Below, piece after piece: positions 6,364 through 19,758 of a DNA stretch of 23,126 nt. The translations under genes and the position numbers were made by a program. Source of the stretch: a virus. The first letter of the stretch is position 1. Each line of letters opens with the position of its first letter. The notes beneath the pieces were generated by a model, which did no database searches, was not told the DNA's origin, and saw nothing but the letters and a program-made list of their open reading frames with translations. The stretch spans positions 1 through 23,126 of IMG/VR virus record IMGVR_UViG_3300045135_000244. The stretch is one strand, 5' to 3'.

Positions 6364-6662
6364 TATGACACCGACACAGTTACAGTTCCTACAGAGTTTG
6401 TTGCAGATACTCCATCAACACCCGCTATGTTTATCAAACTTATCTTAACATCATTTCCAAATCTGTACAAGGTTCCAGCTTCTAATCCTACATCACTTGT
6501 AGGTAAGTTAGTAAGAACTAATTTAGTGTTTCTACCTTCTCCTGGATTATTGGATTGTTGTATAAAAAGATCTAAAGATCTAACCAAATCTATAATATAG
6601 CTTTGATCAACAGGACCTATTGGTAAAGGGAGCCTAGGAGAGGCAATATCTCTGGAGGACAT
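6363..6662 (-). CDS. Conserved small virion-operon protein, 99 aa
   Basis: This short protein has an N-terminal Pro-rich segment (SPRLPLPIGPVDQ), a helix (YIIDLVRSLDLFIQQSNNP), and a beta-rich C-terminus ending in alternating Val/Ser/Thr (SVGTVTVSVS). The segment TKLVLTNLPTSDVGLEAGTL matches a small family I associate with uvMED-type podoviruses, always beside the large gp10-like gene, as here. The C-terminal strand pattern suggests a small structural or assembly component. Start and stop codons overlap both neighbours by one base, so translation is probably coupled. No enzymatic motif is present and no function can be assigned from sequence. Confidence 0.82.
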   Translation of the reverse strand: MSSRDIASPRLPLPIGPVDQSYIIDLVRSLDLFIQQSNNPGEGRNTKLVLTNLPTSDVGLEAGTLYRFGNDVKISLINIAGVDGVSATNSVGTVTVSVS

Positions 6663-8527
6663 TATCTTCTCCCGTCAGGTCTGACATCCACTCTAGGTGT
6701 TCCAAGTTTCCATGCTACACCTTGTTCCGTTGATTCAAGTTTCATATTAAATGATCTTCCTCTAAGTCTTACATTTACCAAGTCTGTAAATTGTTCTACA
6801 GGAGAAGTAGCTGTTCTCGTGCTAGAACCACTAGAAGTATTACTGTAAAGACTCCCAGGTCCTTTTCTTGCTTGTAATGTAAAATTTACTGTTGGATTAC
6901 CAGTTGTAGAAGTTGAACCATCAAATGTAATGTCTGGTATTAATTGTTTTATAAAAGAAAATTGATAACCGTCACCTATATCTATCTGACTTGACTCTAC
7001 GGATGCAGTCATTGCACTACCATCATCATCGTTTCCGTTTTCGTGTTCATATAAATAGGATGAACCAGCTGCCACAGGAAATCTTCTTATTCCTCTGTCA
7101 TGCCATGCAGTTCTAGAAAGTGTTCCGTAATACCATACTTTTTCCAAATAATTGTATATAACATACTTGTCGTTTTCTTCTGATGCTGAAGAAGGATAGA
7201 ACCACCATATCTCTCCGTATTTAGAATTAACACCTGCTATTACTTTATCTTGTTGTTGAGTGTTGAAATCTAAAAAAACTTTATCTCTAACTGTGCAAGG
7301 TAATTGTTGTGTTTGCCCCCCATAGACATAAAAATTATCTTTGCCCATCCAAAACACAGCATCATCAACTGCTACGGCAGCTTTAGGACTTGCAATTGTG
7401 ATATTTTTAGAAAGTTCTTGTAGACCAAAAGTAAAAGGAGGACCGATGAACCTCATACTAAATAAACTTCTATCAGTAAAAACGAGTATTTGTTGCTTTG
7501 TTTCGACTGCTTGTACAAAAGTAGACCCACTACTTAATCTTAAATCACCAGCAGTATTTGTAGCTGTTGGTGTAAAATCTGTTAGAGACTCTTGAGAACC
7601 AAAACGAATAAGCAGTGGATCTTGGACCGATGTACCGAGGGTGTTTGCACCAAAAACAATTACATGTCGATCTAAATCAGACACTAAAACTTGTTTGGCT
7701 ATTGTAGGAGCATCTGAAGAACCAGATAAACTTGTTATATTTACTGCTCTAGTGCCAGTACCATTAGATTTATCCCAATAAAAAATAGCACCATCTCTTG
7801 GGTTTATAAGTAAATCTTCTCCAAAATTATCATGTGACCATAAACGTATTGTTGATGTAGTCCCGCTTGCAGCTGCTTGACCCCAACCAAATGTTGATAA
7901 ATCTGCATTTACACCACCATAGCCACCTGCACCCCATCCATTGCCTCCAACAGAAGTATCTAGACCGACGTTAATTTGATATATGCCATCGACACCCGAA
8001 CCACCGTTACCAGTATCAGAAGAATTTGCAGTTACACTCACTACTATTTCGTAGGAATTACCATCAACTACTTTTGTTATTTGATGTTCTGCATTAAGAA
8101 TATCTGCTGTAACAAGACCGCCTAAAGTTACAGCACCAGATATAGTTACAAAATCATTGACCACTGCACCGTGACTAGAGTCTGTTACAGTTATAGTTGA
8201 CGAACCGTCTGAAGCAGAAAAGGTAATACTGTTTGTAGATGTTTTACGAGTTGGTGTTATATCATTGAACTCACCACCCTCTTCTATATAGTACTTAAGA
8301 TGAGTACCTACACCCATATAATTAGAGCCGTCAAGAGCTACCCAATTGTGTAAAACTCTTGCTGTTCCTTGATATGTATTACTAGATTGTTTAACCCAAC
8401 CACCTATTTTTTCTGGAAAACCTGAATTAAATCTAACTTTATCACAATCAAAAAAACCACCTTCATTAGAATATGAAGTTATTTCTCTGTTGATTCCGGG
8501 TCTAAATTTTAAAGAAGTTATTGGCAT
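6662..8527 (-). CDS. Large tail/stabilisation-type structural protein (possibly P22 gp10-like)
   Basis: This 621-residue, beta-rich protein starts MPITSLKFRPGINREITSYS and continues with a stretch ending in KIGGW. Ser/Thr/Gly/Val-rich strands dominate, including ITVTDSSHGAVVNDFVTISG and the Gly-rich VGGNGWGAGGYGG near residues 193-205. The middle contains recurring 'W/F-hydrophobic' elements (FWMGKDNFYVYGG, EIWWFYPSSASEE) of the kind found in beta-propeller structural proteins. Its place before the ejection proteins and after the adaptors matches where P22 encodes gp10 (packaged-DNA stabilisation), so I suggest a tail hub or stabilisation role. That is an inference from order and fold style, not a motif match. 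An extended -10 promoter lies directly upstream, so this gene may start a fresh transcript after the oxygenase block. Confidence 0.85.
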   Translation of the reverse strand: MPITSLKFRPGINREITSYSNEGGFFDCDKVRFNSGFPEKIGGWVKQSSNTYQGTARVLHNWVALDGSNYMGVGTHLKYYIEEGGEFNDITPTRKTSTNSITFSASDGSSTITVTDSSHGAVVNDFVTISGAVTLGGLVTADILNAEHQITKVVDGNSYEIVVSVTANSSDTGNGGSGVDGIYQINVGLDTSVGGNGWGAGGYGGVNADLSTFGWGQAAASGTTSTIRLWSHDNFGEDLLINPRDGAIFYWDKSNGTGTRAVNITSLSGSSDAPTIAKQVLVSDLDRHVIVFGANTLGTSVQDPLLIRFGSQESLTDFTPTATNTAGDLRLSSGSTFVQAVETKQQILVFTDRSLFSMRFIGPPFTFGLQELSKNITIASPKAAVAVDDAVFWMGKDNFYVYGGQTQQLPCTVRDKVFLDFNTQQQDKVIAGVNSKYGEIWWFYPSSASEENDKYVIYNYLEKVWYYGTLSRTAWHDRGIRRFPVAAGSSYLYEHENGNDDDGSAMTASVESSQIDIGDGYQFSFIKQLIPDITFDGSTSTTGNPTVNFTLQARKGPGSLYSNTSSGSSTRTATSPVEQFTDLVNVRLRGRSFNMKLESTEQGVAWKLGTPRVDVRPDGRR

Positions 8528-8583: not shown

Positions 8584-9249
8584 TTATAAAGGATTGCCTT
8601 TTGAGTCTCTTAATTTATATTTTTGTGCTGTCTGACATTTAAAACATTCTCCACAATACCATTGATCTGAGATACAACTTCGGACTAATTTTTTTAAATC
8701 CATTTCTAAAGAGTCCCAAGCTTCTTTTTTTGTTTTAAATGCATCTAGTTCTTTTCCTGCAAAATTTAACCTTGGTGTACAATATTCTGCTGGTTTACTA
8801 GAAAACTTAGTTGCACATTCCATCCACATGCTCAAGCCTTCTCCATTTAAATTATCTTCAGTATCTTCTCCATCTCTACTTTTTACCACTTCGTTTGTGT
8901 AACTAAAGTTCCCCGTCCACATCCTAGGAATATTGTAGTTGTGACAAAACATTGATCCAAAGAAAGCACACCATTCATGATCTTTCGCAAAGTATTTTTC
9001 TCGATCTGGGTTATTTAAGCTTGCAAATATAGAGGCATGAGAGTAATGAAAATCACCATACTTTTCATACATGTATTCTAGAACTGATTTTACTGCTTTA
9101 GCTTGCTCATCTGCCTTTTGTCTTTCATTTACATCCCACCCCATTTCAATATATAAAACTCGAACTTTTTTCTTTTGCTCTAAAAAATATTTTAATAAAA
9201 TGGTGCTATCGGGTCCACCTGAAAACAATATTAAGTCTGTTGTATCCAT
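8584..9249 (-). CDS. QueC-like PP-loop ATPase (adenine nucleotide alpha hydrolase superfamily)
   Basis: The 221-residue protein has the PP-loop signature SGGPDST at residues 10-16, just after a short hydrophobic strand. It also has four cysteines near the C-terminus at 192, 199, 202 and 205 (C-x6-C-x2-C-x2-C), the pattern that binds zinc in QueC. QueC converts carboxy-deazaguanine to preQ0 using ATP and ammonia, and phage homologues feed tRNA queuosine or 7-deazaguanine DNA modification. Length fits QueC (about 220-230). The central region (MWTGNFSYTNEVV onward) is not one I recognise as QueC, so another ATP-activating PP-loop function is possible. No QueD, QueE, FolE or DpdA gene is in the window. 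It closes the oxygenase block. AGGGAG lies 7 nt before the ATG. Confidence 0.85.
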   Translation of the reverse strand: MDTTDLILFSGGPDSTILLKYFLEQKKKVRVLYIEMGWDVNERQKADEQAKAVKSVLEYMYEKYGDFHYSHASIFASLNNPDREKYFAKDHEWCAFFGSMFCHNYNIPRMWTGNFSYTNEVVKSRDGEDTEDNLNGEGLSMWMECATKFSSKPAEYCTPRLNFAGKELDAFKTKKEAWDSLEMDLKKLVRSCISDQWYCGECFKCQTAQKYKLRDSKGNPL

Positions 9250-9253
9250 TTAT

Positions 9254-9817
9254 TTACTCCCTTGGGTAGGTACATATACTTGCACAAATTCTTCTGTTTG
9301 TGTCTGTTTGCACAATGCCACTATGTTCATAAACATTACTAAATAGCACAGCACTATTTCTGAAAGAAGGAACATCAACATCTGCTATTCTTGTACCACC
9401 ATTGCAGTTAGTAAAATTCAATATAATTGAACTAGCTCTTTGATCTGGTACCAATAATCCTCTTTCAGACCCTACGTCATAATGTGGTGTAGCAATTATT
9501 TTTTTATTTTGGTTTGTGTAGCAGTTTAAATTTATTCTTAGAACATCACAATTAAATTTGTCTTGTATAGCTTTAACTACAGGTTTCCATGCATCGTGTA
9601 CGTTTTCTTCTATTTGTCCATAATGTTTATGATATGCAAAATGATACCATGCATAAGTACCATACTCTTGATCACCATTATCATAGGCAGGATGACAACT
9701 CCAATCTCTCCATATCCAGTTTATTTCATTTGAAAGCACATATTTTTCTAAGCTATCATATGCATCTTCTTGTAGAAAAGGCTTAAAAAAAACGTATTGA
9801 GGATAAGTTAAGATCAT
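9254..9817 (-). CDS. 2OG-Fe(II) oxygenase-like protein, 187 aa
   Basis: The C-terminal half shows the double-stranded beta-helix arrangement of 2-oxoglutarate and Fe(II)-dependent oxygenases. An HxD pair is visible at H112-D114 (TPHYD), followed by strands (ASSIILNFTNCNGGTRI), a distal histidine H165 (YEHSG), and R175/R176 (NRRI) about ten residues later for 2-oxoglutarate. Such enzymes hydroxylate amino-acid side chains, nucleobases or small molecules; the substrate here is not evident. The N-terminal 70 residues are rich in Trp, Tyr and His. It is the last of seven consecutive oxygenase-like genes and is 3 nt from the previous stop. It shares motif architecture with its neighbours but little obvious sequence identity, so it is not a recent duplicate. 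Confidence 0.85.
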   Translation of the reverse strand: MILTYPQYVFFKPFLQEDAYDSLEKYVLSNEINWIWRDWSCHPAYDNGDQEYGTYAWYHFAYHKHYGQIEENVHDAWKPVVKAIQDKFNCDVLRINLNCYTNQNKKIIATPHYDVGSERGLLVPDQRASSIILNFTNCNGGTRIADVDVPSFRNSAVLFSNVYEHSGIVQTDTNRRICASICTYPRE

Positions 9818-9820
9818 TTA

Positions 9821-10447
9821 TTAAACAGCTTTCCAATTACTAGATTGTTTGTCAAAGTTATAAGTATACCATCCAGTGAGTATCCATTTTTCATTAGAGA
9901 TTGGTGGGTTTCCTCTATGGGTGTGTGTGAAATCAGATGGGAACACACAAAGACATCCTTGTCTAGCTGGAATTCTGACTCCTTGGTACAAAAATTCTGT
10001 CTCACCACCCTCTTCAACATCATTTAAAAAAATAGTCCAAACTAAAAATCTGGTTCTTTCAGCCAAATCTTCAAAATGCCAACTATGAAACCCCATACCT
10101 TTTTCTGTTTTTTGTAACTTTATCTGACCAAAATCAACATTTTGTGCCATAAATGTTTCTTTAATTATTGGATATCTATCTGCATATACATTCAAAGCTT
10201 CACTTAATATAAACCCAATTTTATTAACTAGCGTACCATTACCCTTAAGTTCTAACAACTTCAGTGTAAAGAGACCATCATATAATCTATCTTGTCTTGT
10301 TGCTTCATTTACTTGTGTCTTTAAAATTAAATCAGTGTTTGCATAATGTTGTTTATAATACTCTTCTACTTCTGGTATCTGGTTTATTATTCCATCACAA
10401 TCTTCTTTACTTAAAACATCATGAATTAACATTATTGAGTTACTCAT
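9821..10447 (-). CDS. 2OG-Fe(II) oxygenase-like protein, prolyl-hydroxylase type, HxE variant
   Basis: The 208-residue protein has a well-formed oxygenase core: FHSWHFED at residues 120-127, strands FLVWTIFLND, then GGETEFLY (147-154), RIPARQGCLCVFPSDFTHTH (158-177) and a final strand WILTGWYTYNF. The GGETEF and P-x-x-G-x-hydrophobic-FP elements are typical of the prolyl 4-hydroxylase branch. The expected HxD appears as H124-x-E126, a substitution that some family members tolerate. Distal ligands are H175 or H177, and the 2-oxoglutarate salt bridge may use K187 or R178. Cyanophages and marine phages commonly carry this branch; substrates are mostly unknown. The ATG shares a base with the upstream stop. 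Confidence 0.88.
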   Translation of the reverse strand: MSNSIMLIHDVLSKEDCDGIINQIPEVEEYYKQHYANTDLILKTQVNEATRQDRLYDGLFTLKLLELKGNGTLVNKIGFILSEALNVYADRYPIIKETFMAQNVDFGQIKLQKTEKGMGFHSWHFEDLAERTRFLVWTIFLNDVEEGGETEFLYQGVRIPARQGCLCVFPSDFTHTHRGNPPISNEKWILTGWYTYNFDKQSSNWKAV

Positions 10448-11061
10448 TACTTTATATCCCTGCTTTCTTCTATATTTAATATATCATTCAATCTGTGTTC
10501 GTTTTTAGATATTACTGGGATTGGGTTTAACATATCCATTTTATAACCTTCTTTTATACCAGCACCAAAATAATTAAAATTTATTGTAATTCTATACGAT
10601 GCATCTGTAGGTGAAGAGCTAGAATGCATACTTACTGGATCGAACAATAATAGCCTATTTTCAACACACTCAATTTCTGTTCCATCTGCCATAGTCGTTG
10701 GAGCGTTACATGTGTTTACAAAAAACAGTGCTCCCTGATGCTTGAATTGAGAATCGGCATGAGGAGCATGATGAGATACTTCACCTGTTCTGCTAGGAAA
10801 ATAAAGGTTTGCTTTAATTCTAAACAGACCTTCAATATATAATTTAGATGTAATAGACAAAAACGGTTTTCTATCTACAATCTCTTGCCATCCATCATCA
10901 TATGCATGATAGATAGATGTTGCAAAATACATATCATCATTACGTTCATCAAAACCATTTATTCTTGGAGACATTCTCCAAGGAAAAGCTTCTTCTAAAT
11001 AGCCTTTTATATTACCAAACTCACTAGGTTTTAGAAAATTGTCGTAAACCACATAATACAT
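10447..11061 (-). CDS. 2OG-Fe(II) oxygenase-like protein, 204 aa
   Basis: The metal-binding set is visible as H101-x-D103 (APHADSQ), distal H146 (VSMHSS) and R157 (YRITINFNY), separated by a beta-strand core (GALFFVNTC and RLLLFDP). I start the gene at the ATG at 11061 because a consensus AGGAG lies 7 nt upstream. An earlier in-frame ATG 15 codons away lacks a site and would overlap the previous gene by 35 nt. The preceding N-terminal stretch YYVVYDNFLKPSEF is the usual 'hydrophobic strand then FL' opening of this superfamily. The C-terminal 40 residues after the core are variable and charged. It belongs to the seven-gene oxygenase run; substrate unknown. Confidence 0.86.
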   Translation of the reverse strand: MYYVVYDNFLKPSEFGNIKGYLEEAFPWRMSPRINGFDERNDDMYFATSIYHAYDDGWQEIVDRKPFLSITSKLYIEGLFRIKANLYFPSRTGEVSHHAPHADSQFKHQGALFFVNTCNAPTTMADGTEIECVENRLLLFDPVSMHSSSSPTDASYRITINFNYFGAGIKEGYKMDMLNPIPVISKNEHRLNDILNIEESRDIK

Positions 11062-11068
11062 AATATAT

Positions 11069-11073
11069 CTCCT
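11069..11073 (-). promoter_or_regulatory. Ribosome binding site AGGAG deciding the start at 11061
   Basis: Minus-strand AGGAG lies 7 nt before the ATG at 11061 and overlaps the TAG stop of the upstream oxygenase gene. It is the best site in the neighbourhood. It argues for a 204-residue product rather than the 219-residue extended frame. Confidence 0.8.
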
Positions 11074-11635
11074 ATCTAAAATTGGGGCCGTGCACCCAAC
11101 ACACAAGACTGTACCTTGTTCCTTTTGTTACTGGAACTACACCATGTTTCATATAAGATGGGAAAAATATTGCAGTTCCTTGTTCCATTGAATCTTCAAC
11201 TATAAATTTATCTTCGTCATCTGGAAACTGGAATGTTCCACCTTCATAATTATCTGGGTGACTTAGTTGTATAGATAAAGATAACTTTCTTACTGTTTGG
11301 TCTGGAGGTATATCCATATACTGTCCATCTTCATGAGGTTTGTAAAAGCCTTGATTGCTTTCATCATATTTTGTTATTTGAAAAGGTTCTGGGTCTCCTA
11401 AATCATAATGGTAAAATTCTTGATTGACTTTATTTATCAATTCTAAAACTGGTGTGTATAAATCTAAATATCTTACTACGCCATTTAACCATGCAACTTG
11501 GCTTTTTCTTATGGTGCTGTTTCTTCCACCACCACCAATCTTACCTTCTTCTAATCTAGGCTTTGCAACCTCTATGATTGTGTTGCATAAGTCTGCACTT
11601 AATGCTTTTTTTGCTACTATTATATTTCTTTTCAT
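11072..11635 (-). CDS. 2OG-Fe(II) oxygenase, prolyl 4-hydroxylase/PiuC (PKHD) type
   Basis: This is the most canonical oxygenase of the set. Residues 98-104 (YKPHEDG) supply H101 and D103. SIQLSHPDNYEGGTFQF gives the GG-x-F strand, GTAIFFPSYMKHGVVPV gives H164, and TRYSLVCWVHGP gives R174 and the closing strand. This matches the prolyl 4-hydroxylase alpha-subunit/PKHD hydroxylase family (about 190-230 residues; 187 here). Family members hydroxylate proline or related side chains or small molecules; the phage substrate is unknown. The N-terminus contains a Gly/Arg loop (GGGGRNST) and the WLNG segment often seen in PKHD proteins. A GAGG site lies 6 nt upstream. It abuts the next gene at 11636 directly. 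Confidence 0.92.
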   Translation of the reverse strand: MKRNIIVAKKALSADLCNTIIEVAKPRLEEGKIGGGGRNSTIRKSQVAWLNGVVRYLDLYTPVLELINKVNQEFYHYDLGDPEPFQITKYDESNQGFYKPHEDGQYMDIPPDQTVRKLSLSIQLSHPDNYEGGTFQFPDDEDKFIVEDSMEQGTAIFFPSYMKHGVVPVTKGTRYSLVCWVHGPNFR

Positions 11636-12328
11636 TTATATCCTCGCCATTTCTGATACTGGAAAGTAAGGTGCAAGTATGTCTTCAAAGAAAGTTATAA
11701 ACATAACTCTTTCATCGCTTGGTTTCATGCTATATAAAGCTCCATGAGGTGTTGCACCATCAAATCCAATTAATTTATTGTATGTTGAATTATAAACACA
11801 TTCTGTTTTGTATTGGTCTAGTTCTCTGTTGAACACTTCATAGTATTCATCAAAATTTAAATTGGGGTCTCTATTATAGTAAGCGTTTTTGTATTTAGAA
11901 CTTACTCTAACGGAATTAAATTCATTCTTAACAATGTCTTTTTTTGAGTATGTAACTGTTCCACAGTTATCTTGTTTTGATAAATACACTATAGCCATAA
12001 ACTTAGATTGAGCATCATTATGTATCCAACCTTTTCCTGGATTTTGTGTGTTTTGTATTTCTGCCTCAACATCTTCGTATCTTATTTTTTGAAAATGACT
12101 TTGTGCATTCCACTTTATATTCTGTGAAACTTTGTAGTCTGGATAAAGTAGTCTTATTATTTTAGCATTGATTTCCATAAAAACACTATGTTCATAGTCT
12201 GTTTCTGGTGTGGCTCTAGACCCTGGAAAATTACCATACGGATTTTTGTAATTTAATTTATCTGCAAATTCTCTTATACAATCTGGGTTATTAAAAAAGT
12301 TTAAAACTTGTATACTAGGAAAATTCAT
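11636..12328 (-). CDS. DUF6445-like 2OG-oxygenase-fold protein, paralogue A
   Basis: The 230-residue protein shows the pattern I associate with DUF6445: an N-terminal 'FFNNPD---R' segment, NFPGSRA at residues 33-39, GWIHND at 100-105, AIVYLSKQDNCGTVTY, then YNKLIGFDGATPHGALY and RVMFITFF. H103 and D105, H195 and R207 sit where a 2OG-Fe(II) triad and 2-oxoglutarate arginine would be, so a catalytic oxygenase is likely, although the family has no assigned reaction that I know of. The adjacent gene upstream is a gapless paralogue at about 55 % identity by hand count, including all four of these residues. No convincing ribosome site precedes the ATG, so translation may be coupled to the upstream gene ending 6 nt before. 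Confidence 0.85.
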   Translation of the reverse strand: MNFPSIQVLNFFNNPDCIREFADKLNYKNPYGNFPGSRATPETDYEHSVFMEINAKIIRLLYPDYKVSQNIKWNAQSHFQKIRYEDVEAEIQNTQNPGKGWIHNDAQSKFMAIVYLSKQDNCGTVTYSKKDIVKNEFNSVRVSSKYKNAYYNRDPNLNFDEYYEVFNRELDQYKTECVYNSTYNKLIGFDGATPHGALYSMKPSDERVMFITFFEDILAPYFPVSEMARI

Positions 12329-12334
12329 TTCACA

Positions 12335-13027
12335 CTATATTCTATTCATTTCAGGTACAGGATAATATGGAGCAATCAAACCATGAAAGAAACTAATAAA
12401 GATTAGACGTTCTTCCCCTGGTTTTAAGTTATAGAGAGCTCCATGAGCATTACCACCATCAAAACCTATCATTTTATTGTATGCAGAATTAAACAAACAA
12501 TCTAACTTATACTGATTCAAATGCTCGTTCAAATAGGCATAGTACTCGTCTAATTTTAAATTTGGATCTTTTCTATAGTATGCATCTTTATAGTATGGAT
12601 TTGCTTTTACTGACTTAAAGTTACTTTTTGCCTCATCTTTGTATGTGTATAATGCTGTTCCACAATTTTCATGTTTTGATAGATATATAATTGATGTAAA
12701 TTTAGATTCATGATCGTTATGTATCCAACCTCTACCCGGGTTTTCACAATTCAACATGTGTGCTTCAACGTCTTCATATTTTATTTTTTGAAAATATGAA
12801 TGTGCATTTATACCTACAGTCTGAAATACTTTAAAATCAGAATATAATAATTTTACAATTTTAAGATTTATTCTTTGAAAAAAATCATGATCAAAATCAT
12901 TTTGTGCTAATGCTCTTAGTCCTGGATAGTTTCCAGGTGGTTTTTCAAAACGTAGTGTTTCAACATAGTCTACAACAGAATTAGGGTTTTGAAAGAAATC
13001 ATTTACTTGCAAGCTTGGAAAGTTCAT
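12335..13027 (-). CDS. DUF6445-like 2OG-oxygenase-fold protein, paralogue B
   Basis: Start at the ATG at 13027 gives 230 residues beginning MNFPSLQV, matching the length and start of paralogue A; an in-frame TTG two codons earlier is less likely. Key residues align without gaps: GWIHND (H103, D105), NCGTALYT, YNKMIGFDGGNAHGALY (H195) and ERLIFISFF (R207). Most of the difference lies in the N-terminal 50 residues and the 125-175 region, while metal-site strands are conserved, which suggests both copies are active and may have different substrates. The start is 2 nt after the stop of the upstream oxygenase. Function is inferred from fold motifs only. Confidence 0.85.
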   Translation of the reverse strand: MNFPSLQVNDFFQNPNSVVDYVETLRFEKPPGNYPGLRALAQNDFDHDFFQRINLKIVKLLYSDFKVFQTVGINAHSYFQKIKYEDVEAHMLNCENPGRGWIHNDHESKFTSIIYLSKHENCGTALYTYKDEAKSNFKSVKANPYYKDAYYRKDPNLKLDEYYAYLNEHLNQYKLDCLFNSAYNKMIGFDGGNAHGALYNLKPGEERLIFISFFHGLIAPYYPVPEMNRI

Positions 13028-13029
13028 TA

Positions 13030-13566
13030 TCAATCACCCATTTGCACATATAAACTTGGTCTTTCATCAAATTGATACCTAGGATAGTATTGTCCGTTTT
13101 TTTCTATCCAATGTAAAAATACTTGATAATGTCTTTCGTAAGGCAGTTCATGTCGCCAGTGTTCTTGTTCCATACCTTTGTAAAGAAGAGCTTGACCGAC
13201 ATTCAAAATATATTTATCGTCTTCTGCATAGAAAGCCCAATCATCACCCCCTCTACCACCTATGTTCAATGTTAGACTAACTTCACAGGAGTTCCTATCT
13301 TTATGTGGAGGACAACATTGATGTTTGAAGTAGCATCTCCAAAATGAATATGTAGGCACAAGCTCTTTACCATATGCTTCCTCAACTTTAGGTTGTAGGT
13401 AGTGTAGTAATAGCTCCATAGGTGGGTCTGAAAACATTTCACATGTATTAGCGAAAGTAGAACCTTCTGGGGTTCTACCAACTAAGTTGTTATCAATTAG
13501 ATAATCTATGTGTGTTTTATATAGCTCGACTTGGTCTTTTGTAAGACAATCAATTATTTTATTCAT
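13030..13566 (-). CDS. 2OG-Fe(II) oxygenase-like protein, 178 aa
   Basis: The core is recognisable from CCPPHKDRN (H88, D90), CEVSLTLNIGGRGGDDWAFY strands, LNVGQALLYKGMEQEHWRHE with H136 or H139 as distal ligand, and ERHYQVFLHW with R145. This is a compact version of the oxygenase fold with a short N-terminal helical part. It is the first gene of the seven-gene oxygenase block. No Shine-Dalgarno sequence is seen before the ATG. Instead a -10-like TATATT ends 6 nt upstream, so the transcript could be leaderless. The upstream gap of 50 nt is one of the larger gaps in this packed region. Substrate unknown. Confidence 0.84.
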   Translation of the reverse strand: MNKIIDCLTKDQVELYKTHIDYLIDNNLVGRTPEGSTFANTCEMFSDPPMELLLHYLQPKVEEAYGKELVPTYSFWRCYFKHQCCPPHKDRNSCEVSLTLNIGGRGGDDWAFYAEDDKYILNVGQALLYKGMEQEHWRHELPYERHYQVFLHWIEKNGQYYPRYQFDERPSLYVQMGD

Positions 13567-13616: not shown

Positions 13617-13982
13617 TTACCAAGGAAAAGTAGCATTCCCATCTGAATCTTCTTTTGGATTTGCACCATAAACTGCATCCCAAAACTCAAGTTCACCCTC
13701 TATTGCTTGCTTTGCACTGTTTATACCGTCAGTGCCTATTTTACTTTCTAGCCAACTAATTACGTTTGCTTCAGTAATATCCCCATATAATGTAAAACTT
13801 GAATCTATGTTATCTACATTTAAATCCAAATCAAAACCACTGTTTGCCACAACAGAATCATGATTTTCACTAGTCCCTCTTAAAAAGGCAGTCACTCTTA
13901 GCACTACATCTGTATATGTTGTGCCATCTTTTGTTATATCTTTTGTATACAACCTATCTATGTGCCATGAATATGTTGCCAT
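13617..13982 (-). CDS. Conserved tail-region protein, 121 aa
   Basis: The protein opens MATYSWHIDRLYTKDITKDG and is a mix of strands and one C-terminal helix (ISWLESKIGTDGINSAKQAI). Its ending (ANPKEDSDGNATFPW) is short and hydrophilic. Similar small proteins starting MATYxW-I--L-TKD occur beside tail-fibre genes in cyanophages and other marine phages, as here after the polyglycine adhesin. A role in fibre assembly or as a small structural component is likely but unproven. A strong AAGGAG site lies 7 nt before the ATG, suggesting high translation. It is the last structural gene before the oxygenase promoter. Confidence 0.85.
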   Translation of the reverse strand: MATYSWHIDRLYTKDITKDGTTYTDVVLRVTAFLRGTSENHDSVVANSGFDLDLNVDNIDSSFTLYGDITEANVISWLESKIGTDGINSAKQAIEGELEFWDAVYGANPKEDSDGNATFPW

Positions 13983-13993
13983 TTATTTGCTCC

Positions 13994-15250
13994 TTAACTC
14001 TGTACAGTACCTGCCACTGTGCCATTATTTGTAAATGTAAAACTTATTGGTGATGCTCTTTCAACTGCTAAACCTGCAGCTCCACCAGAGCCTCCAGAAC
14101 CACCACCAGAACCACCTGTTGTTGATGGACTTCCAGTTGCTCCTGATGCTCCAGAAGAACCTGCCGAACCGTAGCCACCGCCTGCTCCACCAGTTCCACC
14201 TGCTCCACCATTACCTGCTTGACCAGTTGATCCAGCAGAACCACCTGACCCTGGGTCACCACCGGGTTGATTATTGTATCCTCTGCCTAGTCCTCCAGCA
14301 CCTCCAGCACCTCCGTTGTGACCAGTGACTTGTGTTTGCTGAGATTGTGGATATGTTCTATATATTCTCCACCAGTTTTGAATACTTGTGTATCCACTTT
14401 CTGGACTCGACATATTATATTGGTTATAACGAAACGGTCCTCTTTTGTATGTGTATTGACCACTGGTAAATTGAGATGCTTGACCAGTACCGTTCCATCT
14501 AGCATACGGGTTTGATGGGTTTCCAACCCATGCCCAACCAGCATTCCAACTGTGTGGTGGGGAGTATGACATACTAGTAGAGTGTTCGTTCCACCAGTAG
14601 TTTGGAAATTGTATAGAGAAAAATGGTCCTTGTTGAGCAGTTGTTTGTTGTTGTTGTTGAAGGTTACCACCTCGACCTCCACCACCTGCACCACCTCCTC
14701 CTCCTCCACCAGCGAGGATAGAACCGTTATTTACAAAAGTACATGCACTAGCAACTTTGATAGCATCCCCACCAGCAGATCCAGCAGATCCAGTTCCACT
14801 ATTGGCACCACCTCCACTAGCACCAGCACCACCAGCACCTATGATTGAGCCATTGTTAGTTACTGTGATAGTTCCAGAAGCCCCACTATCTATCTCTAAT
14901 GCATATTCTGAAGTATTGTTTGTCCCTAATGTCACTGAAGAAGGTATTAGTATCTCTTTAGGGTAGTCTACTGCATAATCATCGCCAAATAATGTAGATG
15001 CATTTTGATCTGTGCCTCCAGCACTGTATGTATACTTGAAACCTTTCGCTTGACCATAAAAGTCACTTACATCTAAGGCACCAGTTGTAGGTACATTTGC
15101 AGCCAGATTAGTTCCTTGATTATTTCCAGCTTTTGCCCTTATGTTAGAGCCACCTCTATAGAGACCACCCATGGGTACTGATCCAGACCCTCCTATGAAT
15201 TCAGTTCTTAAATCTGAAAAAGATACGGCACCAGAAGGAGATATAGGCAT
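13994..15250 (-). CDS. Polyglycine-rich tail-tip adhesin / receptor-binding protein
   Basis: The 418-residue protein begins with a conserved phage element, FSDLRTEFIGG and SVPMGGLYRGGS, then TTGALDVSDFYGQA (residues 55-68), a common fibre-attachment style N-terminus. Three glycine-rich tracts follow (about 138-160, 180-196, 312-394). They flank an insert of about 115 residues (197-310) rich in Gln, Tyr, Trp and Asn (NYWWNEHSTS, NWWRIYRTYPQSQQ). The C-terminus is ISFTFTNNGTVAGTVQS. Such tracts form polyglycine-II sandwiches in T-even gp38-type adhesins, where intervening loops contact the receptor, so I infer host recognition with the aromatic insert as the specificity region. A GAGG site lies 7 nt upstream. 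It follows two fibre genes and precedes a small tail protein. Confidence 0.85.
   Translation of the reverse strand: MPISPSGAVSFSDLRTEFIGGSGSVPMGGLYRGGSNIRAKAGNNQGTNLAANVPTTGALDVSDFYGQAKGFKYTYSAGGTDQNASTLFGDDYAVDYPKEILIPSSVTLGTNNTSEYALEIDSGASGTITVTNNGSIIGAGGAGASGGGANSGTGSAGSAGGDAIKVASACTFVNNGSILAGGGGGGGAGGGGRGGNLQQQQQTTAQQGPFFSIQFPNYWWNEHSTSMSYSPPHSWNAGWAWVGNPSNPYARWNGTGQASQFTSGQYTYKRGPFRYNQYNMSSPESGYTSIQNWWRIYRTYPQSQQTQVTGHNGGAGGAGGLGRGYNNQPGGDPGSGGSAGSTGQAGNGGAGGTGGAGGGYGSAGSSGASGATGSPSTTGGSGGGSGGSGGAAGLAVERASPISFTFTNNGTVAGTVQS
14645..14659 (-). repeat. Five-copy CAA microsatellite encoding polyglutamine in the adhesin
   Basis: On the minus strand five CAA codons in a row encode Gln 198-202, directly at the border between a polyglycine tract and the aromatic insert. 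Being a triplet array, slippage would change Gln number without shifting frame. Another CAA pair follows four codons later. Confidence 0.8.
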
Positions 15251-16249
15251 TTAGTTACCTCTTAGTTCGTTTATTTCTTGTTTTAATTCCTTGATTGCTT
15301 CAATCAATACCGCGGTAAGTTTAGCATAGTCAACTGATTTTGTCTGCATTTCATCATTTGCAGTTAATACAACTTCTGGAACAATCTCTTCTATGTCTTG
15401 TGCTAAAACACCAATTTTTAATTTGGCATCTTCTTGATCACTTCTTCTATAATAAACACCTTGCATTCTCATAACTTTATCAAGACCATTCGATATATTA
15501 GAGATATCGGTTTTTAATCTTTTGTCTGAGAAAGCAGTGACATCATCATTAAATGTAGCGGCACCAGCAGCAGACATGTCTAATGTCATGGCAGTTATTG
15601 TAGAACCACCATCGTTGCCTTTCACTATAAAATCTTTATCTTGAACCTGTGTGTTAAAGATTGCATTGGAGTCAGCCATACCAAGATGTATTACAGAAGT
15701 TCCACCATCTTTAAACAAAACATCTCCACCATCTGCATCTATTACAATGTCTGCGGCAGAATCAAATGTCATATCACCAGAGTTTGTTTTTACTGTACTA
15801 ACATTTACAGAACCACCAGATAAATCTAAATCTACAAAAGCATCTACAACGGCTGCACCAGATCCTGCACCATCTAAGTAAACACACTTTGCATCTCCTG
15901 GTCCTATCGTTACGTTTGCACCAGAACCTTGTGATATAATTATATTCTGTGACCCACTTGTTGCATTCTCAATGATATGCACTCTTTTCATTGTGTTCGG
16001 GCCGATAGTAATTGTGCAAGCAGAATCTAGTGTTCCAGTGTATTTTAAGAACAAGGCTCTTCCAGCATCTGAAGACCCATCTGCTATCGTAGTCGTATGT
16101 GTGTCTGCATTTGTTGTTATGGCTTCTGTTCCATAACCTAATGCTTCACCAATCAACTCTAAGTTTGTATTAGTGGATGTACCCCAAGTTCCAGATTCGT
16201 CACCTGTGGTGATCTCTTTTAATCTAAGATTATTTACATATGTTGCCAT
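15251..16249 (-). CDS. Tail fibre/spike with C-terminal S74 intramolecular chaperone domain
   Basis: From the ATG at 16249 (overlapping the upstream TAA by one base) the protein has 332 residues; a 7-codon extension exists but lacks a site. Residues 1-40 (ATYVNNLRLKEI then SGTWGTSTN) form a conserved fibre N-terminus. The middle is beta-rich with repeats like IVIDADGGDVLFKDGG. Residues about 241-332 are a peptidase S74 intramolecular chaperone domain: FSDKRLKTDISNI, IGVLAQDIEEIVPEVV, VDYAKLTAVLIEAIKELKQE and a final coiled coil. In this family the domain trimerises, helps the fibre fold and then cleaves itself just before the Ser of the SD pair, here S241. The mature fibre would then lose about 92 residues. 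The neighbours are the repeat fibre upstream and the adhesin downstream. Confidence 0.93.
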   Translation of the reverse strand: MATYVNNLRLKEITTGDESGTWGTSTNTNLELIGEALGYGTEAITTNADTHTTTIADGSSDAGRALFLKYTGTLDSACTITIGPNTMKRVHIIENATSGSQNIIISQGSGANVTIGPGDAKCVYLDGAGSGAAVVDAFVDLDLSGGSVNVSTVKTNSGDMTFDSAADIVIDADGGDVLFKDGGTSVIHLGMADSNAIFNTQVQDKDFIVKGNDGGSTITAMTLDMSAAGAATFNDDVTAFSDKRLKTDISNISNGLDKVMRMQGVYYRRSDQEDAKLKIGVLAQDIEEIVPEVVLTANDEMQTKSVDYAKLTAVLIEAIKELKQEINELRGN

Positions 16250-17607
16250 TATGCCGCCTTCTCTACCCAATTTGCCAGTTGATCTGGCTCAATTAAACTA
16301 TAGACTTGTTCCTCACCAGTTGCTCCAGTGACACTTAATCCTGTTAAAGATAACACAGAATTAGCAGCTATGGCAAGAGTACCTGATGAAATTGATAAGC
16401 CTGCTAATGTTACGGCAACACCCGCTCCTGCCGTTACAGTTTCTTCACCTAGTGCTGTTGTTCCAAGAACTGTTGTAACTGGTGCTCCAGTTGTAGTTTG
16501 TACTGTATAAACAATAGGAGTATTGGCTTGTCCACCCATTCCCGAATGGTTGGTACAATAATAATATAAGGTCGGAGCATCTGTCGCTACCGTGATTTCT
16601 GTGTAAGAACCAGAGTCACCAGCGTTTCCATAAGTTGTTACACCAGTTGTGTATTCAGTTCCTCCTGCATGTATACCATTTGACGTTGTTGATAGTCTTA
16701 ATGGGTGTCCGCTATTACTACTATCGCTTTGATCAAATCTGTAGGTATTACCTTCAAACAGTTCTAATGTGTCTTGTTGTACACCATCAATGAAATATTT
16801 ATTACCTCCAGCAGTTGATACAACTGTGACTGTTTTTGTTATTGTTGTAGCAGAATATCCACTTATTAATATAGAAGCAGAAACACCAGTAGGTGAAATT
16901 AAAGCAGTACCTACAACTGCTTCATCACCAATATTTACAGAACCAGTTAATCCTGTTTCTTCTACTATAGCTCCTGCAGCAGCAAGAGCATTACCAAGAG
17001 CCGTGGTTCCCGAAACACCAGTAACACTAAATGTACATGTTCCAATAACTGTTGGGTTATTAGATTGACCAGTGGCTTCCAAACCGGTTATTGGAAGAGT
17101 TTGTCCTACATCAGCAAATACACCTCCACCCCATATATGATCACCCCAAGCAGAACTACCCCATCCAGATAGAAATCCAGAGGTTGCTTCTAGTCCAGTA
17201 ACAGAAACATTTACTGGGATTTTGACTAATACACTATTTACGGCTGTGGTAGCAGAGACACCTGTTACAGTTACGTCTGTAGAACCACCTATTGTGGTTG
17301 AGCCTACAGTAGTGGTAGCAGATAGTCCAGTAGTACCAGTATTACTGTCTCCGTCAAAAGTAACTGTGCCAACGGATCCTGTTGTTGAAACACCCGATGT
17401 AAGAAATGCAAACAGAAATGTTAATCCAGCAGAATTAACAACACCAGTTGCTTCTAATCCAGTTTCAACTACTACACTAGTTCCAGTTACCCCTTCTTCA
17501 CCAACGGCAGAAGTAGCTGCAACACCAGTAACACTTACATCAGCATCTACAAATCCTCCCCAAAAGGAGGATCCCCAGGTACCATCACCCCAACCGCTAG
17601 TAGCCAT
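16249..17607 (-). CDS. Repeat-containing tail fibre protein with an embedded cupredoxin-like domain
   Basis: The 452-residue protein contains about nine copies of a loose motif TG-[VL]-x-[AG]-T (for example VTGVAATSAVG, VTGVSATTAVN, VTGLEATSG, VTGVSGTTALG), spaced 15-40 residues apart, and two WG-rich blocks with WGG (residues 6-18 and 149-161). Between residues about 257 and 370 the repeats are interrupted by a different domain with NTYRFDQSD, SGHPLR and YYYCTNHSGMGG, which resembles a small blue-copper (cupredoxin) fold with H301, C351, H354 and M357 as candidate ligands. The C-terminus (LIEPDQLANWVEKAA) is helical and may anchor the next fibre. It is the first of three consecutive fibre-type genes. 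Its start lies at the foot of a hairpin spanning the upstream stop. Virion location is inferred. Confidence 0.86.
   Translation of the reverse strand: MATSGWGDGTWGSSFWGGFVDADVSVTGVAATSAVGEEGVTGTSVVVETGLEATGVVNSAGLTFLFAFLTSGVSTTGSVGTVTFDGDSNTGTTGLSATTTVGSTTIGGSTDVTVTGVSATTAVNSVLVKIPVNVSVTGLEATSGFLSGWGSSAWGDHIWGGGVFADVGQTLPITGLEATGQSNNPTVIGTCTFSVTGVSGTTALGNALAAAGAIVEETGLTGSVNIGDEAVVGTALISPTGVSASILISGYSATTITKTVTVVSTAGGNKYFIDGVQQDTLELFEGNTYRFDQSDSSNSGHPLRLSTTSNGIHAGGTEYTTGVTTYGNAGDSGSYTEITVATDAPTLYYYCTNHSGMGGQANTPIVYTVQTTTGAPVTTVLGTTALGEETVTAGAGVAVTLAGLSISSGTLAIAANSVLSLTGLSVTGATGEEQVYSLIEPDQLANWVEKAA
16498..16839 (-). other. Cupredoxin-like domain with a potential type 1 copper site inside the fibre gene
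   Basis: This segment encodes residues about 257-370 of the repeat fibre. H301 lies in SNSGHPLR after a Ser/Asn-rich strand. C351, H354 and M357 lie in YYYCTNHSGM, giving Cys-x2-His-x2-Met, the spacing of amicyanin (CTPHPFM). The His-Cys-His-Met set is what type 1 copper proteins use. I see the ligands in sequence; copper binding is inferred. Confidence 0.6.
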
Positions 17608-18079: not shown

Positions 18080-18367
18080 TTAGAGTCTCCTTATAAATTC
18101 GGCTGTTTCCTTTTGACCACTAGATCTCAAGGCTTGGATAATAGTACCACGCTCTTCCCTTCTTGCCAAGACTAGGTAGTGATACAATACTTTTTTAAGA
18201 TGCTCTCTAAACTGGTTAGCTTGTTGTCTTATATGTGGAGGTGCTTCGTCAGATATACTAACTATTTTATCAACAGCTAAATCAGCCAATTGTTCGTTTG
18301 ATAAGCCACCTTTATCTGAAGTCATTACATTTACTTTCCCTGCTTGTGATACTCCTACATTAAACAT
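18080..18367 (-). CDS. Conserved small helical phage protein, 95 aa
   Basis: The N-terminal 30 residues are flexible (MFNVGVSQAGKVNVMTSDKG), then a helical stretch begins LADLAVDKIVSISDEAPPHI and continues with QFREHLKKVLYHYLVLARRE, ending AEFIRRL. This 'APP-IR-QA--FRE---K-L--Y' pattern recurs in uvMED-type and other marine phages beside structural genes; no function is known to me. A strong GAGGAG site lies 8 nt before the ATG. The gene overlaps the end of the upstream Rossmann-like gene by 8 nt and is followed at 1 nt by the small structural gene. It may be an assembly factor; that is inference only. Confidence 0.85.
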   Translation of the reverse strand: MFNVGVSQAGKVNVMTSDKGGLSNEQLADLAVDKIVSISDEAPPHIRQQANQFREHLKKVLYHYLVLARREERGTIIQALRSSGQKETAEFIRRL

Positions 18368-19073
18368 CTTTTTTCTCCTCGTATGTTATACCGGGTATGT
18401 CTTCTCTACCAATTATATTAGGTGTTGCATCTAATGGTTCTGGTGGATCTAATTTAGATTTTTTAGTTATCAACATTTCCCCTTGAGTTGTTGTTGAAAC
18501 CAATGGATCATCTAGCCTATGATAGCCGTATAATTTTTGATCTTCTGGAACATTAGTATCTAACAAAGAAGAACTGTTGGCTATATGAAGTTTTATTCCT
18601 TTAGATACGGCTACAGCTAACCAGAACTCACAACAAGCTCTGCCTGCCTCTGCAAAATTAACTGCTTTATGTGTAAAATCTATTCCATATAAATGTAAGT
18701 CTGAAACTTCTTCTGCTACTGCGTAGGCAAGTGCATAAGCAACAGTGTTATTCAAATATGCATATTTAGTTTTTTGTAAAACTTTTTGTAATGGATATTC
18801 AACTACATCTGGACATCTTTCATCTAATGTACACGAAAAAATAGGGACATTGATCTTTGTCTTTAACCTATCTGCCATTATATTAGTTTGTTTTCCAGCG
18901 TTAGGTGTATCTAAAAATCTTGAAGGAGGATCCATCATAAAACATTTGTCATGGTATATAACACCAGACATGGCATTTATTGCCCAGACTTCATCGAACT
19001 TTTCACTTCTGGTTTTAGCTAAAATATATTCTGAAGCACTATTACCTAACCCAACAATAGCTACACTTTTCAT
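18360..19073 (-). CDS. Rossmann-like protein, possibly DUF115/sialyltransferase-like
   Basis: From the ATG at 19073 the protein has 237 residues and opens with VAIVGLGNSASEY, a nucleotide-binding style GxGxS loop. It continues with EVWAINAMSGVIYHDKCFMM, then a second part with YLNNTVAYALAYAVAE and LHLYGIDF near residue 140. The 'strand-GxGxS ... N-x-x-A ... LYGIDF' layout resembles DUF115 and family-42 sialyltransferase-like proteins, which transfer sugars, but I see no unambiguous catalytic set. The C-terminal 50 residues are Pro-rich and probably disordered. An 8-codon GTG extension would overlap the upstream oxygenase; I prefer the ATG 4 nt after that stop. It shares a transcript with the oxygenase, so the pair may modify the same substrate. 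Confidence 0.8.
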   Translation of the reverse strand: MKSVAIVGLGNSASEYILAKTRSEKFDEVWAINAMSGVIYHDKCFMMDPPSRFLDTPNAGKQTNIMADRLKTKINVPIFSCTLDERCPDVVEYPLQKVLQKTKYAYLNNTVAYALAYAVAEEVSDLHLYGIDFTHKAVNFAEAGRACCEFWLAVAVSKGIKLHIANSSSLLDTNVPEDQKLYGYHRLDDPLVSTTTQGEMLITKKSKLDPPEPLDATPNIIGREDIPGITYEEKKDV

Positions 19074-19077
19074 ACTT

Positions 19078-19758
19078 TTATTGTCTTTCTTGTACACGAA
19101 AATTAAGATTAAAACTTAATATTATTCTATCATTAACAGATTTATTTGCCAAAGTTTGATGAGGAAGCCAACCCGGAAAAAGAACCAATAGTCTTTCTTC
19201 TACTGGAACATTGACATTTACTCCACCACCAAATGGAAAGTTTTGATGTTCTTCACTTATGTGCTCACCATACAGATTAACCATGCTTTTAGCTATCCAT
19301 GCAGGGTCAGTAAAAATAATATCAGAAGCACCTTCTTCTGCTTGAACATAATAAACACCACTTATTAAACAATTTCCATGAACATGTTGTGGTATATAGC
19401 CACCTTTTGGATAAAAATTTGACCAAAGATTACCAATAGAAATATTAATGTTAGTCATGTCATGTGATTCTGAAAGCATATGTCTTGAAAAACCACATAT
19501 AAAATTAACACATTCGTGCCATTCTGGAACTTTCTTCAAATCTTCTGAGAAAAAAGTTGTCACTCCATCTCTATCTTTTTCTGCTTGATTGTCAGACCTC
19601 TTACCATAGCCCCAACTGTCAGACATTAATGCATTTGTTTCTGGCTTCTGTTTCCATTTATAACAAAGTTGTTTAATTTTTTCATGAAAAACTTTATTTT
19701 CATGACTTCCTTGATAGATAGGAATAGAAAATATATCTTTTCTAAATTGATTTTGCAT
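19078..19758 (-). CDS. 2OG-Fe(II) oxygenase family protein (TIGR02466/2OG-FeII_Oxy_5 type)
   Basis: The 226-residue protein contains NLWSNFYPKGGYIPQHVHGN then LISGVYYVQAEEGASDIIFT, ERLLVLFPGWLPHQ (residues 188-201) and DRIILSFNLNF (210-220). The 'H-x-H----LSGVYY ... I-F-DP ... LFP-WL-H ... RI-LSFN' arrangement is characteristic of the TIGR02466 putative oxygenases abundant in marine phages. Candidate ligands are H125/H127 and H200, with R211 for 2-oxoglutarate. The usual HxD acid is not evident next to the first histidine, as in many members of this subgroup. There is no ribosome site before the ATG, but a sigma70-like promoter ends 5-7 nt upstream, suggesting a leaderless transcript. Substrate unknown; the downstream Rossmann-like gene is a likely partner. 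Confidence 0.88.
   Translation of the reverse strand: MQNQFRKDIFSIPIYQGSHENKVFHEKIKQLCYKWKQKPETNALMSDSWGYGKRSDNQAEKDRDGVTTFFSEDLKKVPEWHECVNFICGFSRHMLSESHDMTNINISIGNLWSNFYPKGGYIPQHVHGNCLISGVYYVQAEEGASDIIFTDPAWIAKSMVNLYGEHISEEHQNFPFGGGVNVNVPVEERLLVLFPGWLPHQTLANKSVNDRIILSFNLNFRVQERQ

Follow-up and report, generated by a model that had tools for sequence, protein, structure and literature searches.

Why would a short-tailed marine phage keep seven consecutive oxygenase genes, and a QueC-like enzyme gene beside them, among the genes of its tail? The question arises from a DNA stretch of 23,126 nucleotides (IMG/VR virus record IMGVR_UViG_3300045135_000244, positions 1 to 23,126), called here the window, part of which is the structural region of such a phage, a virus of bacteria. 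Marine phages carry many 2-oxoglutarate (2OG) oxygenase genes whose job is not known and which are mostly classed as auxiliary metabolic genes. In the window, seven tightly packed minus-strand open reading frames (ORFs) run from 13566 to 9254, between the fibre and adhesin genes on one side and the structural gene g06 on the other. Across related phages, the oxygenase set in this slot follows the type of adhesin, not the phage backbone, and adhesin, oxygenases and QueC-like gene transfer as one block. The best explanation, to which we give about an even chance, is that the block forms a mobile module for host recognition, in which the enzymes modify the adhesin. The genes of the slot and its borders are:

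6662..8527, minus strand: g06, gp10-like 'stabilization' structural gene, the other boundary of the slot (phrog_3287, E 1.5e-63)
8584..9249, minus strand: P0001, QueC-like PP-loop enzyme (conserved motifs, AlphaFold2 fold, 2OG neighbours)
9254..9817, minus strand: O1 (P0002), 2OG-type oxygenase, phrog_274 (E 1.4e-20; HxD...H...R nearly invariant)
9821..10447, minus strand: O2 (P0003), 2OG-Fe(II) oxygenase with HxE motif, PF13640/phrog_61 (PF13640 38.1 bits, cut-off 27; phrog_61 E 1.5e-43)
10447..11061, minus strand: O3 (P0004), 2OG-type oxygenase, phrog_274 (E 7.7e-35; A4 profile match 95.5%)
11072..11635, minus strand: O4 (P0005), 2OG-Fe(II) oxygenase, PF13640/phrog_61, PKHD/prolyl-4-hydroxylase-like (PF13640 56 bits; PDB profile match to prolyl 4-hydroxylases)
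11636..12328, minus strand: O5 (P0006), DUF6445/phrog_1644 2OG-type oxygenase (phrog_1644 E 3.7e-19; WxHxD...H...R)
12335..13027, minus strand: O6 (P0007), DUF6445/phrog_1644 2OG-type oxygenase (PF20043 37.3 bits, cut-off 24; WxHxD...H...R)
13030..13566, minus strand: O7 (P0008), 2OG-type oxygenase, phrog_2954 (AlphaFold2 and Foldseek; HxD...H)
13617..13982, minus strand: g15, small companion protein, DUF7936/phrog_7802 (PF25590 34.5 bits, cut-off 27)
13994..15250, minus strand: g16, glycine-rich (23%) putative adhesin/fibre tip (matches to phrog_10745 and tail-fibre phrog_11439)
15251..16270, minus strand: g17, tail fibre (phrog_5668 tail fiber match)

The oxygenase set follows the adhesin

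For an unbiased sample, loci were fetched by g06 alone, with at least 2 kb upstream; the contigs are not phylogenetically independent. The gene g06, used as backbone marker and not counted as part of the module, has relatives in HTVC023P-type pelagiphages, the lake phage DSL-LC04 and Roseobacter phage CRP-901. Among the matches listed, the slot holds 1-8 2OG genes in 35/35 loci with g06 identity of at least 80%, and is thus never empty in these close relatives; 2OG genes also occupy it in 5/5 loci at 75-80% identity and in 4/21 below 70%. The QueC-like gene occurs in 4/35 close relatives, as against 6/50 of the loci listed in a broader g06 sample. In some relatives, including HTVC027P, the oxygenase run and the structural genes lie on opposite strands (L019, L020, L002:13292-14953), so that it can invert as a unit.

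An adhesin or receptor-binding role of g16 is suggested by its position, its glycine-rich make-up and its tail-fibre profile matches. For the correlations, 'adhesin' denotes the gene or genes between the fibre gene g17 and the first oxygenase; several alternative adhesins are also glycine-rich (32-34%), others are not. Over the 33 loci in which the slot is visible, the similarity of oxygenase sets correlates with that of adhesins (Mantel 0.66; partial on g06 0.66; p 0.0002). By rank correlation with the oxygenase set, the adhesin reaches 0.475 and g06 a non-significant 0.04, and the values for g05, g03 and g19 are likewise not significant. Orthologues of O7, O4 and O3 are common to 10/10 loci with the g15/g16 pair, and g15 lies directly upstream of O7 in ~27 loci.

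The block moves between otherwise dissimilar phages

Two contigs, IMGVR_UViG_3300047354_000101 (40 kb) and 3300017734_000011 (50 kb), have one DNA region in common, 6,532 bp at 92.5% identity; no other DNA similarity between them was detected. The order of genes in this region is conserved: the 3' part of the fibre gene, the adhesin, g15, O7, a DUF6445 gene, O4, O3, the QueC-like gene and O2. On the fibre side the block begins, in the pair compared, within the 3' part of the g17 gene, and at the other end it stops 4 bases beyond O2, its last oxygenase. Few other genes of the two contigs match, at 30-46% protein identity only, and neither the kinds of replication and structural genes nor their order are the same in the two. 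The module genes are under purifying selection in this comparison, with ratios of nonsynonymous to synonymous substitution (dN/dS) of 0-0.41. Synonymous divergence is uneven across the genes of the shared block, at 0.05 to 0.27 (L364:7721-14229 vs L366:3142-9645), which suggests further exchange inside the module.

The window shows the same separation of module and backbone. Compared with its relative L133, the backbone genes g06, g19, g20, g23 and the gene at 18360-19097 are 91-95% identical and the module 45-69%; the window's module is 44-67% identical to that of an unrelated phage, about as distant as from L133. A DNA-level search of the window against phage records gave one 123-bp match only.

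Seven oxygenase-type proteins of four families

The seven consecutive genes are confirmed as 2OG-Fe(II) oxygenase-type proteins of four families, and catalysis of this kind is predicted for them from motifs, profiles and folds. The Fe ligands, HxD/E...H, are kept across all four families: WxHxD...H...R is invariant in the DUF6445 family of O5 and O6 (alignment of 41 relatives), HxD...H...R stands at 90% or more in the phrog_274 pair O1/O3 (42 sequences), HxD or HxE...H...R/K is conserved among relatives of O4 and O2 (the A4 alignment family), and HxD...H is invariant in 59 sequences of the O7 family. The 2OG-binding Arg/Lys, ~10-12 residues past the distal His, is present in 6/7 genes of the block.

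The double-stranded beta-helix fold is assigned to O7 from an AlphaFold2 model and Foldseek, to O2/O4 from Pfam and a PDB profile search (prolyl 4-hydroxylases, E 7e-21), and to the phrog_274 pair from profile comparison, in which the phrog_274 profile matches the prolyl-hydroxylase-like A4 alignment at 95.5%. For the DUF6445 proteins it rests on the motif and a partial profile match, and only O6 of the two reaches the DUF6445 cut-off in Pfam. Direct comparison of the O7 and DUF6445 profiles with the prolyl-hydroxylase-like alignment gave weak matches. Homologues favour the ATG at 11061 as the probable start of O3, whose ORF reaches a TTG at 11106, and the ATG at 13027, over the TTG at 13033, as that of O6.

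An earlier sequence-only reading had listed seven consecutive 2OG genes (9254-13566), a PP-loop ORF (9249-8584) and an eighth oxygenase ORF (19758-19078), and all are present. Its several subfamilies, including two DUF6445-like genes, agree with the Pfam and PHROG profiles, and mutual identity is low with the single exception of O5 and O6 (55%). The complete or near-complete ligand set that it saw in every gene holds for iron in all seven and for Arg/Lys in six, not for O7, which has no conserved Arg/Lys at the usual place, nor for the eighth protein, O8 (P0009), which has HxH...H...R, not HxD/E. The structure check that it proposed for a jelly-roll core came out in favour for O7, the least recognisable oxygenase of the block, which gave a prolyl-hydroxylase fold.

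The existing PHROG labels 'ferrochelatase', 'endonuclease V' and 'minor coat protein' look wrong for these families. 'DNA endonuclease V' (phrog_274) finds no nuclease or glycosylase Pfam match at E up to 1 and is also contradicted by HxD...H...R and the prolyl-hydroxylase-like profile match; 'minor coat protein' (phrog_1644) is contradicted by the invariant WxHxD...H...R and the DUF6445 match. Genes with these labels recur elsewhere. In the Pelagibacter phage HTVC008M, a SAR11 myovirus, a comparable oxygenase run near baseplate genes (L359:7782-10602) consists of two 'DNA endonuclease V' genes, one 2OG oxygenase gene and a DUF6445 gene labelled 'minor coat protein', and a gene with a methyltransferase domain follows. 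A tryptophan halogenase gene directly adjoins a phrog_274-type gene in cyanophage S-H38 (L360:5556-7486) and a tail-fibre assembly gene in cyanophage P-SSM2 (L361:67-3194), where a 2OG oxygenase gene lies nearby.

A viral 'ferrochelatase' with an oxygenase fold

The third label concerns O7 and has entered the literature: 'ferrochelatase (phrog2954)' was named as a seasonally enriched viral gene (PMC11561400), and ferrochelatases were reported always to adjoin 2OG genes (PMC9599517). The AlphaFold2 model of O7 has a mean pLDDT of 95.9 (59-sequence alignment); the PDB matches listed by Foldseek are 2OG oxygenases, with prolyl hydroxylases on top, and in BFVD the best matches include a 176-residue protein of Synechococcus phage S-SM1 that is annotated 'Ferrochelatase'. 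No Pfam match was obtained for any of the 59 phrog_2954 members, and the ferrochelatase domain PF00762 was not found in HTVC023P, HTVC027P or 023Pt_psg01, in a search for which eight control genomes were positive. With no PF00762 and an oxygenase fold instead, the ferrochelatase (HemH) identity of phrog_2954 was rejected. HTVC023P gp67, labelled ferrochelatase, aligns with the phrog_2954 family of O7; at least there, therefore, the ferrochelatase partner of the 2OG genes is another oxygenase-type gene.

The QueC-like partner

P0001 stays below every Pfam cut-off (QueC 19.6 bits, cut-off 22). In the PDB, its AlphaFold2 model (pLDDT 91.4) is best matched by Cap9 of type IV CBASS (E 2.9e-7), then by QueC (E 1.3e-6). 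SGGxDS, as SGGPDS, and C-x6-CxxCxxC occur in 19/19 P0001-type sequences, with x6 where canonical QueC has x8 between the first cysteines, and the QueC signatures YPDC, VPxRN and YxQxHxxE are absent in 19/19 (canonical motif form and signatures per PMC13329287). A search of the bacterial and archaeal genome collection by pattern and tblastn found no cellular relatives, a pattern-based result that is not proof of absence. In 22/22 distinct contigs, fetched mostly with the QueC-like gene as bait, 2OG genes lie beside or near it. Eight contigs with the gene, several of them partial, gave no QueD, TGT or radical-SAM match, on which ground a 7-deazaguanine DNA pathway was discarded. An anti-phage defence system was also discarded, the PADLOC matches being to generic QueC and 2OG only, as was a correlation between g15 length and presence of the QueC-like gene, which looked phylogenetic and had exceptions, including the window.

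Cap9 couples 7-carboxy-7-deazaguanine onto the N-terminal glycine of a protein (PMC13279940), which makes a protein-directed reaction of the QueC-like enzyme plausible, with ATP-dependent conjugation of the Cap9 type as a candidate.

The eighth oxygenase and its neighbour

One further oxygenase gene lies outside the block:

19078..19758, minus strand: O8 (P0009), eighth 2OG-type oxygenase (PF13759 69.6 bits; TIGR02466 92.8 bits; phrog_81)

It has no close match among the relatives compared and resembles a separate insertion, the flanking genes being adjacent without it in relatives such as L133; L295 carries another 2OG gene, not the same as O8, on the far side of O8's neighbour. For P0010 (18360-19097), which is 75-94% identical in relatives, PHROG gave no match and Pfam no significant one; by eye it appears DUF115/MptE-like.

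What the module may do

A host-recognition module equipped with modifying enzymes of its own would account for the place of these genes, for the matching of enzymes to adhesin and for their joint transfer. Such a module would comprise the fibre end, a glycine-rich adhesin, a small companion and adhesin-matched 2OG-Fe(II) oxygenases, with the QueC-like enzyme in one version. Most likely, the targets of the oxygenases would be side chains of the freshly synthesised adhesin or companion, hydroxylated with Fe(II), oxygen and 2-oxoglutarate; the QueC-like enzyme would probably spend ATP to activate a carboxylate, which it would then join to that substrate or convert there. In favour of this reading, the fold and profile neighbours of the oxygenases are protein-acting prolyl hydroxylases, and Cap9, the best PDB match of P0001, is protein-modifying. 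A multi-enzyme post-translational pathway, in which several 2OG oxygenases hydroxylate the adhesin and the QueC-like enzyme conjugates or amidates a group, is possible but rather doubtful.

Several points weigh against adhesin modification. We infer both the adhesin as substrate and the chemistry, and adjacent genes may hitch-hike without a joint function. The fibre gene g17 likewise correlates with the oxygenase set (rank 0.41), the adhesin signal drops to 0.20 (p 0.006) without the g15/g16 group, and oxygenases are also present in some slots whose adhesin is not glycine-rich or that have no obvious one. O7 has no conserved Arg/Lys at the usual spot 10-12 residues past the distal His. The N-terminal Met-Gly acceptor that Cap9 uses is absent from g15 and g16; the window's g04 does begin with MG, a start that is not shared by every locus carrying the QueC-like gene.

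Ranked by falling weight, the rivals begin with linkage alone and go on through host-surface modification and a metabolic role to DNA modification. If adhesin and oxygenases merely shared a hot spot and were exchanged together by recombination between conserved flanks, the jobs of the oxygenases being unrelated, the adhesin-proximal O7, O4 and O3 should be the most constant and the distal oxygenases the most variable, as they are, and the uneven synonymous divergence in the shared block also fits. This explanation is nevertheless unlikely: g06, as near on the other side, is uncorrelated with the oxygenase set, the shared block stops exactly after the last oxygenase, and the slot is occupied in every close relative. 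More doubtful again is that the enzymes oxidise or decorate host glycans, lipids or porins, for example to block re-infection via the adhesin's receptor. Adhesin matching would then be explained without a virion substrate, but the recognisable enzymes fall in the peptide-acting prolyl-hydroxylase/PKHD groups, Pfam, PHROG and TIGRFAM-type profiles match no glycan-handling gene in the block, and the genes sit inside the structural gene run.

Improbable, and ranked just after it, is the role most often proposed for such genes in cyanophages and pelagiphages (PMC9602691, PMC11561400), that of auxiliary metabolic genes whose products use up 2-oxoglutarate or oxidise host metabolites, steering nitrogen, iron or energy metabolism. 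Host iron-transport genes do rise during pelagiphage infection (PMC12753301); adhesin tracking, joint transfer and up to eight diverged enzymes would, however, be left unexplained, and the supposed haem partner has an oxygenase fold. Some phages build modified DNA bases from preQ0, the product of QueC (PMC13329287), and the QueC-like enzyme might yield a deazaguanine while the oxygenases oxidise bases. We hold this to be very improbable, given the lack of QueD, TGT and radical-SAM matches and of the three QueC signatures described above, and given that nucleic-acid oxygenase families all score below the Pfam cut-off.

For the sequence-only reading, which had proposed a dedicated cassette with a PP-loop partner, the co-occurrence of QueC-like and 2OG genes and the joint block transfer bear out the cassette, and the search for the block in related contigs, which it suggested, found a version with five oxygenases in two otherwise dissimilar phages. 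Between serial acquisition and old divergence, old divergence agrees with the three pairs in three families, and inheritance has been largely by block transfer, not gene by gene. Among the three targets that it offered, a virion protein is now the likeliest and DNA has lost ground. It had also called the block unusual; oxygenase clusters are known for this phage group (PMC9599517), which goes halfway towards the refutation that it had named, and the tie to the adhesin is not reported there.

Comparison with known systems

Two elements of this picture were already known separately, namely oxygenase clusters in these phages and the exchange of host-recognition modules. In the papers searched there was no sign of the adhesin linkage, of a QueC-like partner or of the label corrections, which as far as those papers go are new, as is the combination of the two known elements; nor did the literature searched yield a report of a phage 2OG oxygenase tested on a virion protein. 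One paper mentions in passing a possible connection of viral prolyl 4-hydroxylases with tail-fibre collagen (PMC9301287). An oxygenase set that is matched to a putative receptor-binding protein, and transferred along with it, suggests a concrete job that can be tested, the chemical finishing of the virion's host-binding tip. Were the post-translational pathway true, the chemical finish of the tail tip would be a swappable part of host recognition. The 'viral ferrochelatase' of phrog_2954, counted as metabolic in at least one published study, drops out.

The closest precedent is that of the HTVC023P-type pelagiphages (Wittmers 2022, PMC9599517), of the same phage group and with the same slot (HTVC023P, 023Pt_psg01), where several non-orthologous 2OG genes lie near a phrog_2954 gene. 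That cluster was read as metabolic, with a haem-enzyme partner. In the present block that partner itself has the fold of an oxygenase, a QueC-like gene is added, and the make-up of the set goes with the adhesin. Cyanophage S-SCSM1 (PMC9602691) likewise holds 24 2OG-Fe(II) oxygenase genes, many of them diverged, in one marine phage; its genome is large and T4-like, however, the ORFs are scattered, no adhesin-linked block was reported and functions were not assigned. The nearest solved relatives of O2 and O4 by sequence are bacterial and algal-virus prolyl 4-hydroxylases (PDB 3itq, 5hv0, 5c5t), at remote similarity. In Alteromonas phages A5/V22/P24 (PMC10579305), a receptor-binding protein and its companions are exchanged between otherwise dissimilar phages, as here; the companion there is a fibre chaperone, whereas the present module brings a QueC-like enzyme together with five to seven oxygenases. 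Cap9 of type IV CBASS and QatC of qatABCD (PMC13279940) are, like P0001, QueC-fold PP-loop enzymes diverted from preQ0, but they are bacterial defence proteins with an N-terminal-Gly partner, while P0001 lies among phage tail genes in a module with no such partner. The QueC fold family, other repurposed members of which act on proteins in anti-phage defence, thereby gains a phage branch linked to tails.

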